Shown in pieces: positions 11,665-62,211 of a DNA stretch of 64,000 bases. The translations under genes were made by a program, and so were the position numbers. The stretch comes from Shinisaurus crocodilurus (lineage: Eukaryota > Chordata > Lepidosauria > Squamata > Shinisauridae), in assembly GCA_021292165.1 (NCBI GenBank), contig CM037877.1, forward strand, positions 107,011,858 to 107,075,857, in the 5' to 3' direction. The notes below the pieces were generated by a model that was not told the origin of the DNA, did not search any database, and saw only the letters and a program-made list of their open reading frames with translations. The stretch's first letter is position 1. Each line of letters begins with the position of its first letter.

Positions 11665-12255
11665 TCTACTATATAAATATGAAAGTTTGTCTGTGTGTCT
11701 GTGGCTGTGTGTCCGTGTGTCCGTGTGTACAGGCGTTTGTGTGCATCGCATAGGCTCCTACACGGTTGGACGGATCCACCCAAAACTTGGCACGCATACT
11801 CCCCATCACCCAAGGACAAAGACTGGAGGGTTCACTAGAGTTGTATAAACGAGCCTCGCCGGGCAAAACAGAGGCCAAAATAGGCCCCGCTCACGCCCGG
11901 CAAGGCCTTACCTTTTTCTTTGGGGCGGCTCACCTCTCCATGGCGAGCCGCCCGCGCGGCTCGCTCTGGTCCCGTCGCGTCACTTCCGGAACCAGAAATG
12001 ATGTGACGGGACCCTGCGCAGGCGCTCTGGACCCCTGTGGTGCATTCTGCGCCTGCGCAGGGACCGGAGAAGGCGGATTGAGCGGCGCAGAGAACCTCTC
12101 CGCACTGCTCAGAAGATCGAGTCGGGGGGGCGCCCCGCGGAGAATCGAGGCGGGGGCGAGCCGAGCCCCCCTCAAGGTTTGGGTTCAATCTCCAATAAAA
12201 GCCCTCACTGCGCCTGTACGGCCCAATAGATGAGAGCCAATGGTGTCACTTAATA
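11665..12255 (+). mobile_element. Helitron-type non-autonomous element, 5' part, interrupted
   Basis: Starts tctactatataaatatgaaa and continues with gtgtgtccgtgtgt, ggctcctacacgg and cttggcacgcatactcccca, matching the 5' part of the complete copy at 38846-39850 and the copy at 33473. After a CpG-rich insertion (11835-12180) the Helitron text resumes as gcgcctgtacggcccaatag, atgagagccaatggtgtcact and fades by about 12255. The 3' hairpin and CTAG end are missing. Confidence 0.75.
11835..12180 (-). mobile_element. CpG-rich promoter-like retroposon, copy 1
   Basis: A GC-rich block of about 346 bp starting agttgtataaacgagcctcg on the plus strand lies within Helitron DNA. The target heptamer gggttca flanks it on both sides (11828-11834 and 12181-12187), and the sister Helitron copies show the uninterrupted site. 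The minus strand holds ETS-like (ccggaagt type), NRF1-like (gcgcaggcgc) words and a strong splice-donor match (aaaaggtaagg) near 11905-11917. Copies at 39925 and 61549 share one end and differ at the other, as expected from 5' truncation if the minus strand is sense. The open frames across it are most simply a by-product of GC richness. Confidence 0.7.
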
Positions 12256-26265: not shown

Positions 26266-27048
26266 CAGGGATGTTGAAGAGTCCTTGGTCTCGAGTCACG
26301 AGTCGAGTCACGAGTCTTTGGACCCGAGTCTCGAGTCCGAGTCCGAGTCCTTGGTCCAAAATGGTGACTCACGAGTCACGAGTCCTGAGTCACTCCCAAA
26401 ACTGACTCCACAAGTCCCTATTAAAATCAATGGGGTTTCCCCCCAACAAAATAAGGCTACTTCAGATGTGTGGCTTAAATAAATTCTAGGCACAAGTGTG
26501 CCTTTTTATTTCAAAACTCTGCAACTGATTTTGGCAAGAACAGACCAGGCAGACAAACCCAAAATAACCAGGCAGGCAGAGGAGGCCGGGAACCCCAAAG
26601 CAGGCAGGCAGAGGCCTTTGTCTTGGACAATTCAACTGCTGAACAGGTCAAGAAGAGACCAGGCAGGCAGAGGAGGCAGGGAACCCCAAACAGGCAGGCA
26701 GAGGCAGCCAAACCCAAAATGTCTGACCCTAACCCCAACCCCCCACAACAACACATCAATCAAAATAAATCTCAACACATCGTTGGGGCTGCGCTCCTGG
26801 TAGCTGTCCATAGTGGCCGAGCAGCGGCGCGCCTCGCTTCCATGCGCTCTTCACCGGTGATCGCGCTCCTTCTGGCACAGCCAGAAGACTCGTCAACAGC
26901 CCAGGGATGTTGACGAGTCCTTGGTCTCGAGTCCCGAGTCGAGTCTCGAGTCCCATTAAAAATATTGGGACTCGAGTCCGAGTCGAGTCAGAGGGGGGAC
27001 TCAGTCTGACTCACGAGTCGAGTCCTCGAGTCCGAGTCCCCATCCCTG
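26266..27048. mobile_element. non-autonomous hAT element with GAGTC subterminal arrays
   Basis: Terminal inverted octamer cagggatg ... catccctg, flanked by a perfect 8-bp target duplication cttgtttc (26258-26265 and 27049-27056). Both ends carry dense arrays of GAGTC/CGAGTC words (26280-26400 and 26905-27040), in the position of subterminal transposase-binding repeats. A second inner copy of the left end (cagggatgttgacgagtcct) lies at about 26903. The interior (26540-26710) has caggcaggcagaggaggc-type repeats and a GC-richer part (26790-26890). No transposase frame. Confidence 0.9.
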
Positions 27049-27698: not shown

Positions 27699-27893
27699 TG
27701 GGACATAGGAAGCTACCTGCCTTATCCTGAGTCAGACCATTATTCCATCTAGCCCAGAACTGTTTTCACTGACTGGCAGTGGCTGTCCAGGATTTCAGGC
27801 AGGAGTCTTTCCTGCCTACCTGGAGATGCTGGGGGTTGAACCTAAGACCTTCTGCATGCAAAACATGTGCTCTGCCACTGAGCCACGGCCCCT
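27699..27893 (-). mobile_element. tRNA-derived SINE (non-Sauria type)
   Basis: Minus-strand head has gtggctcagtggcagagcac (box A-like) and aggttcaacccccag (box B-like), followed by a body with ctccaggtagg, ggaaagactcctgcc and an end at ctaggaagc-type text (aggaagctacctgccttatc on the plus strand). A headless fragment of the same family lies at 10441-10550. Confidence 0.8.
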
Positions 27894-31140: not shown

Positions 31141-32100
31141 CATAGAATCATAGAATCATAGAAAAGTAGAGTTGGAAGGGGCCCACAAGGCCATCGAGTC
31201 CAACCCCCTGCTCAATGCAGGAATCCAGGTGAAAGCATCCCTGACAGATGACTGTCCAGCTGCACCTTGAATGCCTCCAGAGTGGGAGAGCCCACCACCT
31301 CGCTAGGTAGTTGATTCCATTGTCTTATTGCTCTGACAGTCAGGAAATTTTTCCTGATGTTTAGGTGGAATCTGGGTTCCTGTAACTTGAGCCCATTATT
31401 CCTGCAAACTGGGATGATCGAGAAGAGATCCTGGCCTTCCTCTGTGTGACATCCCTTCAAGTACTGGAAGAGTGCAATCAGATCTCCCCTCAGTCTCCTC
31501 TTCTGAAGGCTAAACATGCCCAGTTCTTTCAGTCTCTCCTCATAGGGCCTTGTTTCCAGTCCCTTTATCATCCTTGTTGCCCTCCTCTGAACCCTCTTCA
31601 GTTTGTCTACATCCTTCTTAAAGTGTGGTGCCCAGAACTGGACGCAGTACTCAAGATGAGGCCTAACCAGTGCCGAGTAAAGGGGAATTATAGCGATTTG
31701 GAAGCTATACTTCTCTTAATGCAGCCCAAAATAACATTTGCCTTCTTTGCAGCCACATCGCATTGCTGGCTCATATTCAGTTTGTGATCTACCACAATTC
31801 CAAGATCCTTCTCACTTGTAGTATTGTTGAGCCAAGTGTCCCCCATTCTGTAACTCTGCATTTGGTTTCCTCTCCCTAGGTGCAGCACTTGGCATTTATC
31901 CCTATTAAATTTCATTCTGTTGTTTCCAGGGCTTTTTTTCTGGTGGAACTCACCGGAACTGAGTTCCAGCACCTTTTCTTCTATTAATTGCATTACAATT
32001 GAATCGCCATCTACTCCTGAGGAAATGTAATCCAAGAGTTCCGGTACCCTTTTCTCCAGAAAAAAAGCACTGGTTGTTTCTATTGGTGGAGTCTTCATTT
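31141..32100 (-). pseudogene. CR1 LINE, ORF2 3' part and 3' end
   Basis: Minus-strand reading gives MKFNRDKCQVLHLG, then EKDLGIVVDHKLNMSQQCDV, later [20 protein letters not shown] and [14 protein letters not shown], the usual order of the CR1 reverse-transcriptase thumb and C-terminal region. The 3' UTR ends with tggactcgatggccttg and catagaatcatagaatc repeats at 31141, the CR1-type terminal repeat. Truncated at the 5' side, broken by frameshifts, and split by the hAT MITE at 31927-32072. The element would copy itself by target-primed reverse transcription; this copy is dead. Confidence 0.9.
31927..32072. mobile_element. hAT MITE inserted in CR1, perfect 8-bp target duplication
   Basis: Ends cagggctttttttctgg and ccagaaaaaaagcactg form inverted termini. 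gttgtttc occurs on both sides (31919-31926 and 32073-32080). Length 146 bp, no coding capacity. It is younger than the CR1 copy that it splits. Confidence 0.9.
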
Positions 32101-33457: not shown

Positions 33458-33472
33458 ATGTATATATATTTA

Positions 33473-34245
33473 TCTACTATATAAATGTGAAAGTTTGTCC
33501 ATCTGTCCGTTTGTACGTATGTACGTACGTGTGTCCGCATGGGGGGCTGAGTGCGTTGCATTGGCTCCTACGCGATACTGATCCACCCCAAACTTGGCAC
33601 GCATACTCTCCATCAGCCAAGGAAAAAGACTAGTGGGTTAAAATCTCTGAAAAACCCTAGCTGCGCCTGTACGGCCCAAAATAGATGAGAGCCAACGGCG
33701 TCACTTGGAATGCTCGCAGGGGCCATTCAGGAGTGGCTATGCAAATCGCTCCAAGGGCATTTAGAATGTTGGTATGCACTGCCACCACAGGGGCCCAATG
33801 AGAGGCGGATATGCAAATCTCTCCTATGTCCAAACAGAATCTTCACATGAACCACAGCTGGGGCCTACACCAGGGGGGGGGATTTCAAACAAACAGTGCC
33901 TATAGGAAAATGACAACCCGTGCAACGCCATCGTGTAGTCCCGGGGGGGGAGCAAGGATTTCATTGTGTGGTCCTGGGGGGTGGGCAGCAGGGAATTCAT
34001 TGTTGTGTGGTCCTGGGGGTGGGAGCAGGGATTTCATTGTGCAGTACCGGGGGGGGAGCAGGGATTTCATTGTGTAGTCCCAGGACAGCAGGGATGTCAT
34101 TGTGCAGACCTGGGGGAGCTGGCAGACCCGGGGGAGCTGGGAGTCCTGGGGGAGCTGGGAGTCCAAGGGATTCCAAACAACGGAGAGCAACCGTAAGGAA
34201 TTTCGAACAAATAGTGCCTATAGGAAAAAGATGACCCGTGCAACT
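33473..34245 (+). mobile_element. Helitron-type element, 3' truncated
   Basis: Starts tctactatataaatgtgaaa directly after an A (33472), as expected for insertion between A and T. It shares with 38846-39850 the blocks cttggcacgcatactctcca, gtacggcccaaaatag, gaggcggatatgcaaatctc and cctataggaaaatgac. An internal G-rich array (33935-34180) follows. The 3' end is lost at the MITE starting near 34246, so the hairpin and CTAG are absent. Confidence 0.85.
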
Positions 34246-35477: not shown

Positions 35478-35478
35478 A
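35456..35478 (+). promoter_or_regulatory. splice acceptor before the TOPORS-like coding exon
   Basis: A pyrimidine tract (ccttctttttttcttattc) ends in attag at 35473-35477, and the ATG follows three bases later at 35481. In TOPORS an intron likewise ends just before the internal MAS... start, so the position fits the family and argues against a processed retrocopy. Confidence 0.7.
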
Positions 35479-35480
35479 TT

Positions 35481-37241
35481 ATGGCATCATCAAATGAAGA
35501 GCTTAATTCTGACAACAGCTTTTCATCCCTGACTGGGACAGGAAATGAGAACATTGCCTTAGCAACTGATGGACCTTCAGACTCAAGGTGCCCTATCTGC
35601 TTGGAAAGAATACGGAATGTGGCCTTCTTAAACCCCTGCTTCCATAGATTCTGTTTTGCTTGTATCCTAGAGTGGTCAGACAGGAAAGCAGAGTGCCCAC
35701 TCTGTAAGCAGCGTTTTAACTCTTTCTTTCACACCATAACATCTGACACTGATTTTGAAGAGTACATTATTCCTTTTGAAAATGCATCATATGGCATGTG
35801 TGTGGAGAGGTCAGCAACTGCACAAAGACATGAGTCATTGCCAGATAATGGGATCTTGTATGATGGATCCTCAGGTCCCCAATCTCAAAGTCGGATGAGA
35901 ATGCTTGATGAGCTGATGAGACAGATGGGAATAAGGATGTCATCTCACCCAGGAGGAATATCCCTTGGGCAAATCCGAGAGCAGGTTACAATTAATTTCA
36001 GGAGGGCCCTTTATCCATCTGGAGTGCGTGTCAGGAATGTCCGAAGTGGAGGTTTTTATAGGGACATTTCAGCAGATTTTTTCCGCAGGAACCCTGTCCG
36101 CCTTAACAGGTTAGTTCCCTGGTTGAAACGTGAGCTGCGAGTGCTGTGTGGTGCACATACAGCCTTGATCAACAACATACAGCATATTGTTTTGAATAAC
36201 ATAACCATCTATGATCTGGACAGCCAAGCATTTGCTGATATTATGCAACCTCATTTACTCCACTACACCAATCACTTCTTGCATGAATTCATCAACTTTG
36301 CCCGCTCCCCTTTCAACATTAAAGCCTATGATTGGCGAGCCAGTTATGACATTCCCTATCCGATGCATGATGATGGGTTCCAGTCCGATTCATCATTTAC
36401 TACATCATCTTCAGAGGAGGAGGAGGACGACGAAGTGGAAACTGTAGACTCAGATGAGAATGAGGGGGCAGATGGAGAATCAGTGACAAGTAATGAGGAA
36501 GGAAGTTGGGATGATGAAATCCAAGAATTGACCAGTTCCAGTTCAGACCAGACTCTGGATGAGTTTTTTCTTCCGTTTGGATCTTCAGGTGGAGAACTTG
36601 TAAGAAGTGAAGACAACATGCATGTATTTTTTCAAGCTGATGCGCATTTAGGTACACACAACAGGCCCTGTCCATTGCATAAATGTGTCCATGATCAGAT
36701 AGAAGAGAGTACACCTATGCTTTGCAAGTCCATCCCCATTTGTATGGAGAGTGCAGGACACAATGTAGATGATGATGATGAAGAAGAAGAACTGGAAGAT
36801 GAACAGGAAGCTTTGAGAAGCCACAGCTTTGGTGGTGGCTCTCATAGTCATAATAATGCACGTTCAGCTATCTCTACTGTTGCTTGGCTTGATAGCAATA
36901 ACCAGATGTTTAATGCTCTGCAGGTTCCATCTCAAGAGCAAGAAACAAATAGCATGGGCCAGACACCATTGCAACAGCAGGACTTAGTTAGCACCAAGCT
37001 GATCCATCACAAGGGAGAGGAGATAATTGTTATTAAGGTGCTTCAGCCCCAAACAGAAGACATTTTGGTTATTGAGCACATAGAATTGAAAATAAATGAA
37101 AAGGATGATTCTGGTCAGCTGCCATGGCAAAGTGAAGAAATGGCTAACTCTGCAGAACTACACTCTCTCGCAGAAGTCACACCAAGTGGTTCTGCTACCA
37201 AGTGGGATGGTGGATGTTTCTCATGTATCAGAAGACTGTGA
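35481..37241 (+). CDS. TOPORS-like RING-type E3 ubiquitin ligase (long 3' exon)
   Basis: A 586-codon uninterrupted exon. Residues 37-75 form a canonical C3HC4 RING (C37, C40, C53, H55, C58, C61, C72, C75) which would bind an E2 enzyme and ligate ubiquitin. Residues about 171-295 (INFRRALYPSG, YRDISADFFRRNP, LVPWLKREL, INFARSPFN) match the TOPORS block after the RING. TOPORS itself is a nuclear ubiquitin/SUMO E3 of about 1,000 residues with a long arginine/serine-rich C-terminus. Here that part is absent; instead there are acidic runs (312-344, 428-442) and two SUMO-interaction-like strands (EEIIVIKV at 513-520, ILVIE at 528-532). The frame ends GGCFSCIRRL. The acceptor at 35476 and the start MASSNEEL, like the TOPORS internal start, support this ATG. 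Probably a paralogue rather than TOPORS proper; no stops or frameshifts. Confidence 0.9.
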   Translation: MASSNEELNSDNSFSSLTGTGNENIALATDGPSDSRCPICLERIRNVAFLNPCFHRFCFACILEWSDRKAECPLCKQRFNSFFHTITSDTDFEEYIIPFENASYGMCVERSATAQRHESLPDNGILYDGSSGPQSQSRMRMLDELMRQMGIRMSSHPGGISLGQIREQVTINFRRALYPSGVRVRNVRSGGFYRDISADFFRRNPVRLNRLVPWLKRELRVLCGAHTALINNIQHIVLNNITIYDLDSQAFADIMQPHLLHYTNHFLHEFINFARSPFNIKAYDWRASYDIPYPMHDDGFQSDSSFTTSSSEEEEDDEVETVDSDENEGADGESVTSNEEGSWDDEIQELTSSSSDQTLDEFFLPFGSSGGELVRSEDNMHVFFQADAHLGTHNRPCPLHKCVHDQIEESTPMLCKSIPICMESAGHNVDDDDEEEELEDEQEALRSHSFGGGSHSHNNARSAISTVAWLDSNNQMFNALQVPSQEQETNSMGQTPLQQQDLVSTKLIHHKGEEIIVIKVLQPQTEDILVIEHIELKINEKDDSGQLPWQSEEMANSAELHSLAEVTPSGSATKWDGGCFSCIRRL

Positions 37242-38845: not shown

Positions 38846-39850
38846 CTAGCTTTTTTTACCCGGCGTTGTCCGGGTCGTCATTTTCCTATAGACACTATTT
38901 TTTCGAAATTCCTTAAGGTAGCTGTCCGGTGTTTGGAATCCCTTGGAATTCTAGCTCCCCCGGGACTACCAGCTCCCCCAGGATTACACAATGAAATCCC
39001 AGCTCCCCTGGGACTGCCAGCTCCCCCAGGACTGCACAATGACATCCCAGCTCCCCTGGGACTACACAATGAAGAATTCCGTGTCTCTTCCCCCCCCCCC
39101 CGGTACTACACAATGAAATCTCTGCTTCCCTCCCCCCCCGGGACTATGCAACAATGTTTTCCCTGTCCCCCCCCGGACCACACAATGAAATCCCTGCTTC
39201 CCCCCCCAGGACTACGCAATCAAATCCCTGCTTTCTCTCCCCCCCCCCGGTACTACACAATGAAATTCCTCCCCCCCCGAACCACACAATGAATTCCCTG
39301 CTCCCCCCCCCCGGGACCACACAAAAATGAATTCCCTGCTGCCCCCCAGGACCACACAATGAAATTCCTGTGTCCCCCCCCCCCGGAACTACACAGTGGC
39401 GTTGCACGGGTTGTCATTTTCCTATAGGCACTGTTTGTTCAAAATTCCCCCCCCCCCCCGTGTAGGCCCCGGCTGCAGTTCATATGAACATTCTATTTGG
39501 ACGTAGGAGAGATCTGCATATCTGCCTCTCATTGGGCCCCTGTGGTGGCAGTGCATACCAACATTCTAAATGCCGTTGGAGCTATTTGCATAACCGCTCC
39601 TGACTGGCCCCTGCGTGCATTCCAAGTGACACCATTGGCTCTCATCTATTTTGGGCCGTACAGGCGTGGTGAGGGTTTTTCGGAGATTTTAAGCCACCAG
39701 TCTTTGTCCTTGGGTGATGGAGAGTATGCATGCCAAGTGTGGGGTGGATCCGTCCAACCGGGTAGGAGCCAATGCGACGCACACGAGCCGTACGTAGGAC
39801 GTACGTACGTACACACACACACGTACAAACATTCACATTTATATAGTAGA
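38846..39850 (-). mobile_element. complete non-autonomous Helitron
   Basis: On the minus strand it begins tctactatataaatgtgaat at 39850 and ends ...CTAG at 38846. Upstream of CTAG are ACCCGG-ACAACG-CCGGGT (a 6-bp hairpin with a 6-base loop) and an A-rich 8-base spacer, the textbook Helitron 3' end. The 5' T is preceded by A and the final G is followed by T, so it sits in an AT target without duplication. It has no Rep/helicase frame and is therefore moved in trans. The interior (38935-39400) is a G-rich minisatellite. Confidence 0.93.
38935..39400. repeat. C/G-rich minisatellite inside the Helitron
   Basis: Repeated units combine a C8-C10 run (plus strand) with ggactacacaatgaaatccc-type text, about 35-45 bp each. 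A related array is at 33935-34180 in the other Helitron copy, in opposite orientation. The G-runs on the minus strand could form quadruplexes. Confidence 0.85.
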
Positions 39851-39924
39851 TTAATAGGTCATTATTTACATATGAGATGAATGGATACCAATCAGACCTT
39901 TGAGCAAGGGTGGAGATTTAATAG

Positions 39925-40213
39925 GCTTGTAACCGCGAGCCTCGCATGGGCAAAATGGGCCAAAATCGGCCCCACTCATGCCCGCATGAGGCCTTACCTT
40001 TTCTCTGGGGCGGCTCACCTCTCCGCGGCAAGCCGCCCGCGTGGCCTACTCCAGTCCCATCGCGTTTCTTCCGGCACCGGAAGTGGCGTGACAGGACCGG
40101 AGAGGGTGGGTCGAGCAGTGTGGAGAACTGCTCCGCGCCGCTTAGAAGATCGAGGTGGGGGGGCGCCCCCACAGAGAGGCGAGGTGGGGGCGAGGCGCCC
40201 CCCCCCAGGTTCA
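39925..40213 (-). mobile_element. CpG-rich promoter-like retroposon, copy 2
   Basis: Plus-strand text gcgagcctcgcatgggcaaa, ttctctggggcggctcacct, cttccggcaccggaagtg and gaagatcgaggtgggggg aligns with the copies at 11835 and 61549. It lies 75 bp from the 5' end of the complete Helitron. No clear target duplication; it is the shortest copy at the variable end. Confidence 0.65.
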
Positions 40214-40340
40214 ATTTCATGTCTAGTGGAGAACCTCTTACAAGTACAACTGGAGAGCCGGATTCTATTTTGGAAAAGTTCTTGGGAGCCACATTCCAGT
40301 GGTGGGTGGGGCCCAAGGCAAAAGGGGTGGTGCAAAAATA
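40205..40340 (-). mobile_element. hAT-like fragment related to 51415-51740
   Basis: The inverse of ccagtggtgggtggggccca, aggcaaaaggggtgg and tctagtggagaacctctta matches the element at 51415-51740. Only one end is present. Confidence 0.45.
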
Positions 40341-54047: not shown

Positions 54048-55012
54048 TTGAAGGGCCCAGTGCTCTTCAACATTTTTATTAATAACTTGGATGAAGAGGT
54101 GCAGGGAATGCTTATCAAATTTGCAGATGACACAAAATTGGGTGGAATAGCTAATACTCTGGAAGACAGAAACAATTTCAAAGTGATCTCAATAGGCTGG
54201 AGCGCTGGGCTGAAAACAACAGAATGAAATTTAATAGGGATGAATGCCAAGTGCTGCACCTAAGAAAAAGAAACCAAATGCACAGTTACAGGTACTACTT
54301 GGCTCAACAATACTACAAGTGAGAAGGATCTTGGAATTGTTGTAGATCACAAGCTGAATATGAGCCAGCAATGTGATGTGGCTGCAAAAAAGGCAAATGC
54401 TACTTTGGGCTACATTAATAAAAGTACAGCTTCCAAATCGCATGAAGTACTAGTTCCCCTCTACTCAGCACTGGTTAGGCCTCATCTTGAGTACTGCATC
54501 CAGTTCTGGGCACCACACTTTAAGAAGGATGTAGACAAACTGGAGAGGGTTCAGAGGAGGGGCACAAAGATGATAAGGGGACTGGAAACAAAGACCTATG
54601 AGGAGAGATTGAAAGAACTGGGCATGTTTAGCCTTCAGAAGAGAAGACTGATGGGAGATATGATAGCACTCTTCAAGTACTTGAAAGGTTGTCACACAGA
54701 GGAGGGCCAGGATCTCTTCTCCACCTTCCCAGAGTGCAGGACACAGAATAATGGGCCCAAGTTACAGGAACCCAGATTCCGCCTGGACATCATCAGGAAA
54801 AATTTCCTGATGATGTTAGACTGTTAGAGCAATACGACAATTGAACAAATTACCTAGGGAGGTGGTGGGCTCTCCCACACTGGAGGCATTCAAAGTGCAG
54901 CTGGACAGCCATCTGTCAGAGATGCTTTGATTTGGATTCCTGCATTGGGCAGGGGGTTGGACTCATTGGCCTTATAGGCCCCTTCCAACTGTACTGTTCT
55001 ATGATTTTATTA
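54048..55012 (+). pseudogene. CR1 LINE, RT palm to 3' end
   Basis: The translation begins GPVLFNIFINNLDEEVQ and reaches KFADDTKLGG at 54117-54146, the catalytic FADD box of the reverse transcriptase. After a frameshift it continues with [52 protein letters not shown] and [18 protein letters not shown]. The 3' UTR ends gggttggactcattggcct, ccccttccaactgtact and gttctatgatttt. It is a close relative of the minus copy at 31141 and is 5' truncated. Confidence 0.92.
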
Positions 55013-61507: not shown

Positions 61508-62211
61508 ATGGGCTTCATCGCACAATTGAACAACCCACCATGGCTTATAGTTGTATAAACGAGCCTCGCCGGGCAAAACGGAGGCTGAAATTGGCCCCGC
61601 TCATGCCCTGGCGAGGCCTTACCTTTTTCTTCGGGGCGGCTCGCCTCTCCGCGGCAAGCCGCCCGCGCGGCCCGCTCCGGTCCTGTCGCATCACTTCCGG
61701 GACCGAAAATGAAGCGACAGGCGCATTCTGCGCCTGTGCAGGGTCCCGTCCCGTCATTTCAGGTCCCGGAAGTGACGCGACGGGACTGGAGAAGGCGGAT
61801 CGAGCAGCGCGGAGAACTTCTCCGCACCACTCAGAAGATCGGGTCGGGGGCGCGCCCCCACGGAGAATCGAGTCGCGGGCGCGGAGAGCCCCTGACTCAG
61901 GTTTGGATGCACCTCTACGCATGGCTTATTTAAGCCATGGTGAGCTGTGCACATGCCAGTGGCCAGTGGACATTTTGAATATTCAACCTGCAGCTTGTTG
62001 TGTCATCAGAACCCAGGGACTATGGTCTATGTGAGGGTTGTTTAACCTTTGTATAACCCATGGTCCCCGGATTCAGATGACATGACAAGCTATAGCCAGA
62101 GCTTAAATATTCAAAACCTGCTGCCCAGCATGCTCCAGAACACGCTGCAGCCCACCATGGCTTAAATAAGCCATGATGAGCTGCTTGGATCATGTGAACC
62201 AGGCCAATGAC
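61508..62211. mobile_element. DNA-transposon-like MITE interrupted by the CpG-rich element
   Basis: Left caacccaccatggcttat, right (after the insertion) ttaagccatggtgagctg, and at the far end gcccaccatggcttaaataa and atgtgaaccaggcc. Inverted wording and a sister element at 62394-62790 indicate a family. No coding capacity. Confidence 0.5.
61549..61919 (-). mobile_element. CpG-rich promoter-like retroposon, copy 3, with 10-bp target duplication
   Basis: A 371-bp GC-rich block flanked exactly by catggcttat (61539-61548 and 61920-61929). The host MITE has an uninterrupted equivalent at about 62157-62175, which confirms the insertion. The minus strand carries inverted acttccgg/ccggaagt words, NRF1-like gcgcctg words, and an aaaaaggtaagg splice-donor match at about 61617-61629. 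The longest of three copies; its extra bases are at the cgtagaggtgc end, consistent with full-length or less 5' truncation. Confidence 0.75.

Follow-up and report, generated by a model that had tools for sequence, protein, structure and literature searches.

A CpG-rich block in a 64-kb stretch of the Shinisaurus crocodilurus genome (64,000 nucleotides in all, referred to below as the window) is very probably a non-autonomous DNA transposon (MITE) of about 372 bp, which belongs to the hAT superfamily, has an Ac-like choice of target and comes in several subfamilies. We would file it under hAT on the basis of its 8-bp target duplications and the form of its ends. The sequences themselves show where the element ends, that its target is duplicated over 8 bp with a preferred base pattern, that empty sites exist and that the element is made up of hairpins. 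The original prediction, made from the window alone, had proposed a retroposon that spreads ready-made CpG-island promoters.

Three CpG-rich copies in the window

The window holds three related sequences, with the minus strand taken as sense. The copies, the words of interest in copy 3, the target duplications and the paralogous empty sites are as follows.

11836..12180, minus strand: probable MITE, copy 1; 345 bp, one inverted repeat without its 13 terminal bases
39922..40225, minus strand: probable MITE, copy 2; 304 bp, older subfamily with ends TAGRCATG../TAGGCTTG..
61546..61917, minus strand: probable MITE, copy 3 (the main element); 372 bp, both ends complete, TAGAGGTGCATCC.. and ..TACAACTATA
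61618..61626, minus strand: splice-donor word AAGGTAAGG in copy 3
61693..61700, minus strand: ETS-type octamer CCGGAAGT in copy 3, within the central palindrome
11828..11835: duplicated target beside copy 1, GGGTTCAC
12181..12188: its counterpart on the other side of copy 1, GGGTTCAA, a 7/8 match
39910..39917: duplicated target beside copy 2, GTGGAGAT, then four additional bases
40226..40233: its counterpart on the other side of copy 2, GTGGAGAA, a 7/8 match
61538..61545: target duplication of copy 3, left, 8 bp, CCATGGCT
61918..61926: target duplication of copy 3, right, CGCATGGCT, with one base extra
39628..39748: paralogous empty site of copy 1, 87%
33582..33702: second paralogous empty site of copy 1, 85%
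62148..62183: paralogous empty site of copy 3, 32/36 bases, gapless

The three related copies of the original prediction are real and mobile. They are also GC-rich and CpG-rich, with a GC content of 66% versus 43% for the window and CpG observed/expected ratios of 0.96, 0.82 and 1.14 versus 0.24. In a 360-column alignment, copies 1 and 3 share 79% identity, and copy 2 aligns with copy 3 as two separate pieces (80% and 77%). No fourth copy emerged when the window was searched with a profile, whose remaining hits were palindromes of the same three. Each copy had been said to carry ETS-like and NRF1-like words; the ETS octamer does occur in all three, but the strict NRF1 10-mer is present in copy 1 only. 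The splice donor is indeed kept in copies 1 and 3, but it is not limited to these two, as AAGGTAAG is found in copy 2 as well (3/3 copies). Outside the copies, the window contains one ETS octamer, no strict NRF1 word and three matches to the donor word.

Copy 1 is bordered on both sides by gggttca and copy 3 by catggcttat, with an exact letter match, and the chance of a common word in 14-base flanks (20,000 random pairs) is 0.0056 for at least 7 bases and 0.00025 for at least 10. Seen from the window only, the apparent duplications of the three copies measure 7, 7 and 10 bp. The two words that had been taken as exact duplications are there to be seen, but their lengths of 7 and 10 bp do not stand: once the family ends are known, they can be read as 8-bp duplications altered by small later changes, and part of catggcttat would in this reading belong to the element and match the flank by coincidence. 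As uninterrupted paralogous sites exist for copies 1 and 3, these copies are insertions with a duplicated target. The motif at the empty site of copy 3 recurs nearby, which makes this site weaker than the two empty sites of copy 1.

The repeat that hosts copy 1 is itself present three times in the window (33467-33730, 39600-39856 and 11665-11832 plus 12187-12251), with 76-91% over the matched parts, and ends in CACATTTATATAGTAGAT. Directly to the right of copy 3, the stretch 61920-62175 can be aligned with its own reverse complement (68%, 278 columns) and has the motif CCATGGCTTAAATAAGCCATG at both ends; it is perhaps another palindromic element.

Elsewhere in the window, a 587-codon open frame (35478-37241, plus strand) encodes a RING finger (PF13920, E 1.1e-9), has the equine herpesvirus-1 RING domain as its best solved structure match (E 5.6e-15) and is presumably an intronless Topors-like gene. 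Two further open frames (31212-31715, minus strand, and 54264-54827, plus strand), neither with a Pfam match at E 0.001, resemble the 3' part of a CR1-type LINE, and a tRNA-like match at 27821-27892 (minus strand, 35.1 bits) probably represents the head region of a SINE of tRNA origin. At 33929-34164 and 38953-39395 lie two tandem arrays that are built of related units (CAGGGATTTCATTGTG.. and, in inverted form, CACAATGAAATCCCTG..) and contain G or C runs, and one genome copy of the MITE (L025) sits in the same kind of array.

Fixed ends and 8-bp duplications across the genome

We searched the window's own 2.19-Gb assembly with copy 3 as query, which gave 5055 first-look candidates, 40 of which were scored (copy 3 among them). 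All 40 start at query base 1-3, end at 362-371 and, as copies picked by score, are about 360-380 bp long; the other 39 are 88-92% identical to the query. In a first set of 39 score-picked copies with flanks, with ends placed where the family ends match best, the flanks agree exactly over a length of 8 in 21/39 and over a length of 3 in 3/39, with 0 or 1/39 for each of the lengths 4-7 and 9-12, and the mean flank identity is 0.74 at length 8 versus 0.23-0.39 at other lengths. One locus occurs twice among the 21 (L028 and L047).

A second set was picked by the exact 18-base 3' end alone, as a counter to selection by score. This end has 92 exact occurrences, and its reversed control none; 24 of the 92 were already in the first set, one is copy 1 and 60 of the other 67 were read. 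Of these 60, 31 show an exact 8-bp duplication and then TAG, and 36 a match of at least 7/8 with TAG, compared to a mean of 0.68 and a maximum of 3 with shuffled partners (200 shuffles). Two loci occur twice among the 31, and both sets together (99 copies) include three duplicated loci. No exact duplication was seen at the fixed ends of 18/39 copies in the first set and 29/60 in the second. By BLAST, 45/60 copies of the second set extend to consensus base 1, and the 31 that have an exact duplication range from 144 to 391 bp in length (318-391 bp in 26 of them), including three deletion derivatives of 144-145 bp, two of which are one duplicated locus, with ends and duplication intact.

The terminal inverted repeats (TIRs) of the family are imperfect and about 17 bp long (TAGAGGTGCAT../TAGAGTTGTAT..); on the three window copies alone, a test for them did not reach significance (lowest p among 12 comparisons, 0.07). 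The copies are short, non-coding and numerous, with near-identical lengths, as is characteristic of MITEs. Both ends are fixed in most genome copies, contrary to the earlier view of one constant and one variable end, and copy 1 is without 13 terminal bases. L141, which is 1/60 of the second set and an end fragment only, was considered together with L154 as an autonomous partner and rejected: only the last 18 bases are common, and it has the appearance of a truncated end fused to a different repeat.

With copy 1 as query, mainly sequences of the copy-3 type were found (77-82%). Among ten relatives of copy 2 (from 40 scored), two have an exact 8-bp duplication and eight a 7/8 match under a best-fit rule, a weak result in that several of the eight have fitted ends differing from the family ends. 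Three relatives (L162, L163 and L164) align with copy 2 as two pieces separated by additional hairpin-rich DNA, and therefore the central palindrome differs between subfamilies.

Probable hAT assignment and other origins considered

The TIRs of hAT elements take the form (C/T)A(A/G)NG, and the MITE ends TAG[A/C/T]G.. and TAGAG.. fit it. Duplications of 8 bp and TIRs of 5-27 bp are the features given for hAT elements in the account of PMC3517528, which also describes the Buster target as nnnTAnnn, and the target of the hAT element Hermes is described as nTnnnnAn (PMC10368747). In the 52 exact duplications, T stands at position 2 in 28 and A at position 7 in 31; at the Buster positions, T stands at position 4 in 11 and A at position 5 in 14. 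This preference for T2 and A7 would fit the Hermes target as a bias, not as a rule.

We infer that a hAT transposase is the mover and cut-and-paste the mechanism. Encoded elsewhere in the genome, the transposase would bind the imperfect TIRs, TAGNGRTGCATCCAAAC at one end and TAGAGTTGTATAAACGAG at the other, excise the MITE and integrate it where the target is cut with an 8-bp stagger, and the site would thereby be duplicated. hAT transposase domains are abundant in the assembly: all 150 scored hits, of 7321 first-look candidates, pass the cut-off, and several of the transposase frames exceed 850 codons. A hAT transposase locus with the MITE ends was found neither in 30 loci (~3.2 kb) and 16 downstream stretches (1.2 kb) nor by end patterns. 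Ten of the 30 loci contain a near match to the 17-base 5' end (2-4 mismatches); in seven of these ten it lies in one common context, which starts TGGAG and not TAG, is ~1 kb from the domain and probably belongs to the coding frame. Outside MITE context, the 17-base 5' end pattern occurs in two places, one a MITE copy and the other without a transposase-sized frame in 5.2 kb. The 15-base 3' end pattern occurs there in two places, one of which is L141, with five for reversed controls; this pattern demanded non-T at one place, which excludes MITE copies and about a quarter of other sequence.

The ends of other hAT families in the genome, taken from pairwise alignments in which minus-strand loci were not used, include CAGGGCCGGTGCAAGG, CAGTGGCGTAGCGTGGG and CAGGGATGTTGAAGAG. 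Most like this MITE among the other hAT ends is a family with TAGGGCTGTGCACG at L049 and TAGGGCTCTGCACG at L052, which shares its TAG-N-G-N-TG end form and has a hAT dimerisation domain nearby, yet the sequence of these ends differs, and each comes from a single pairwise alignment. The window also contains a second hAT-type non-autonomous element, 783 bp long (26266-27048), with an exact 8-bp duplication (CTTGTTTC) and ends CAGGGATGTTGAAGAG../CAGGGATGGGGACTCG.., which is full of GAGTC repeats and whose end matches L087 and L090-L092, which are hAT loci in this genome.

As described in PMC3517528, the hAT MITEs Mar and Vege of Drosophila willistoni are, like the family studied here, short and non-coding with short TIRs and 8-bp duplications. 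They are AT-rich and 610 and 884 bp long, whereas here 372 bp, mostly palindromes, contain 69% GC and 55 CpGs; the bias given there for Mar is that of Buster (nnnTAnnn), whereas this MITE has an Ac/Hermes-like one. Our literature search on CpG- or GC-rich reptile elements, hAT MITEs and promoter words, with most subscription papers and Repbase outside its scope, found no description of this family.

Superfamilies other than hAT that make 8-bp duplications exist, and the examined loci and end patterns gave no transposase with matching ends, so that a non-autonomous DNA transposon of such a superfamily, also duplicating about 8 bp, has to be weighed; we consider it quite unlikely, given that both the end form TAG-N-G and the target bias towards T2/A7 agree with hAT and that hAT transposases are plentiful in the same genome. 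A LINE-mobilised retroposon (for example, through Bov-B/RTE) that copied a CpG-island promoter and first exon had been favoured on the window alone, with its empty sites, its apparent duplications of 7, 7 and 10 bp, a copy 1 that is shorter at one end and, in the flank of the same copy, a run of T that lies some 10 bases upstream from a T|T junction, like the Tn-TA signature of Bov-B and Sauria SINEs. We dropped it on the 8-bp duplications of the genome copies and now regard it as very improbable: the duplication length peaks sharply at 8 bp and does not vary, both ends are fixed and form inverted repeats, and copy 3 is without the Tn-TA pattern. Instead of the 5' truncation and A-rich or simple-repeat tail of a SINE, we found the 45/60 copies that reach consensus base 1, and no tail. 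Duplications of fixed length with TIRs are also the outcome that had been set beforehand as refuting the retroposon of the original prediction.

SVA and other CpG-rich retroposons are, as here, CpG-rich mobile sequences that could bring regulatory words; those of the SVA type move through RNA and have A-tails and variable duplications, in contrast to the fixed 8-bp duplications and inverted ends of this MITE. Sauria SINEs and Bov-B are likewise abundant squamate mobile elements, but the 3' microsatellite-like tails and Tn-TA signature described for them in PMC13295347 are not the rule in this MITE. A small-RNA origin (tRNA, 7SL, 5S or other) was rejected, as no Rfam family matched the copies at the gathering score; a tRNA search also found none, and two microRNA matches in copy 3 were below threshold (E 0.58 and 0.7). 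The suggestion of derivation from a gene gained no support. Comparison of one long frame of copy 3 with proteins gave 132 candidates, none at E ≤ 0.001. Viral contigs and phages gave no match.

Palindromes, CpG decay and promoter words

The 372-bp consensus of the hAT-type MITE has 69% GC and 55 CpGs, and its predicted fold pairs 286/372 bases, about three quarters, with perfect inverted repeats whose arms measure 35, 15, 12, 12 and 11 bases. Folding exceeds that of dinucleotide shuffles in strength, with z values of -8.8, -4.0 and -10.6 for copies 1-3, with borders that differ by one to a few bases from the final ones, and of -18.7 to -8.6 in the first 20 of 39 genome copies. A change on both sides of a pair was seen in only 6/102 pairs of the three copies, and for this reason we consider the fold a property of the founder. 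The ETS- and NRF1-type words are located inside the palindromes. The founding sequence was probably a chain of near-perfect palindromes with ETS/NRF1-type words, which would be the source of the GC and CpG richness, and this richness would now be in the process of being lost with the loss of methylated CpG.

In 40 copies, picked by score and hence favouring well-preserved ones, transitions amount to 12.3% at consensus CpG versus 2.1% at other G/C sites, a roughly sixfold difference, whereas at an unmethylated promoter CpG would decay no faster in the germ line. Such a pattern is that of methylated DNA and argues against lasting CpG-island protection. The test on three copies had looked milder, with 39/55 consensus CpGs kept in the block and 12/18 in a neighbouring control repeat, which is no difference. 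Protection of the CpGs was rejected on both the three-copy and the 40-copy tests. The CpG-island look appears to come from many CpGs at founding and from the limited age of these copies; the 40 diverge from the consensus by 4.0-7.8%, copy 1 by 17% and copy 2 by 22%.

Compatible with a hAT MITE, although unlikely on the sequence evidence, would be a role of its copies as CpG-island promoters with a usable splice donor. The words are widespread across 42 copies, with the ETS octamer in 38, the NRF1 12-mer exact in 24 and with at most one mismatch in 37, GGTAAG in all 42 and AAGGTAAGG in 41, and conservation is comparatively high in the windows around the ETS word. Against such a role stand the CpG transitions, which are as in methylated DNA, and the conservation of the donor windows, which rank only 25-38 of 238. 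Constraint on the splice donor was rejected for this unexceptional rank and for the three occurrences of the donor word outside the copies in the window. That fresh insertions may act as short-lived two-way CpG-island promoters with a ready donor, in which tandem-palindrome ETS/NRF1 modules would seed starts until methylation erodes them, we hold to be decidedly improbable.

The family looks like a hAT-type MITE of an ordinary kind with an unusual composition. Identifying the block removes the false lead of a promoter-spreading retroposon and illustrates how three copies can mislead, as small changes beside 8-bp duplications mimicked duplications of variable length. The oddity that remains is a hAT-type MITE with such a density of GC and CpG, about three quarters self-paired, in a CpG-poor vertebrate stretch, and this would make the family well suited to asking whether fresh insertions dense in CpG can ever avoid being methylated.
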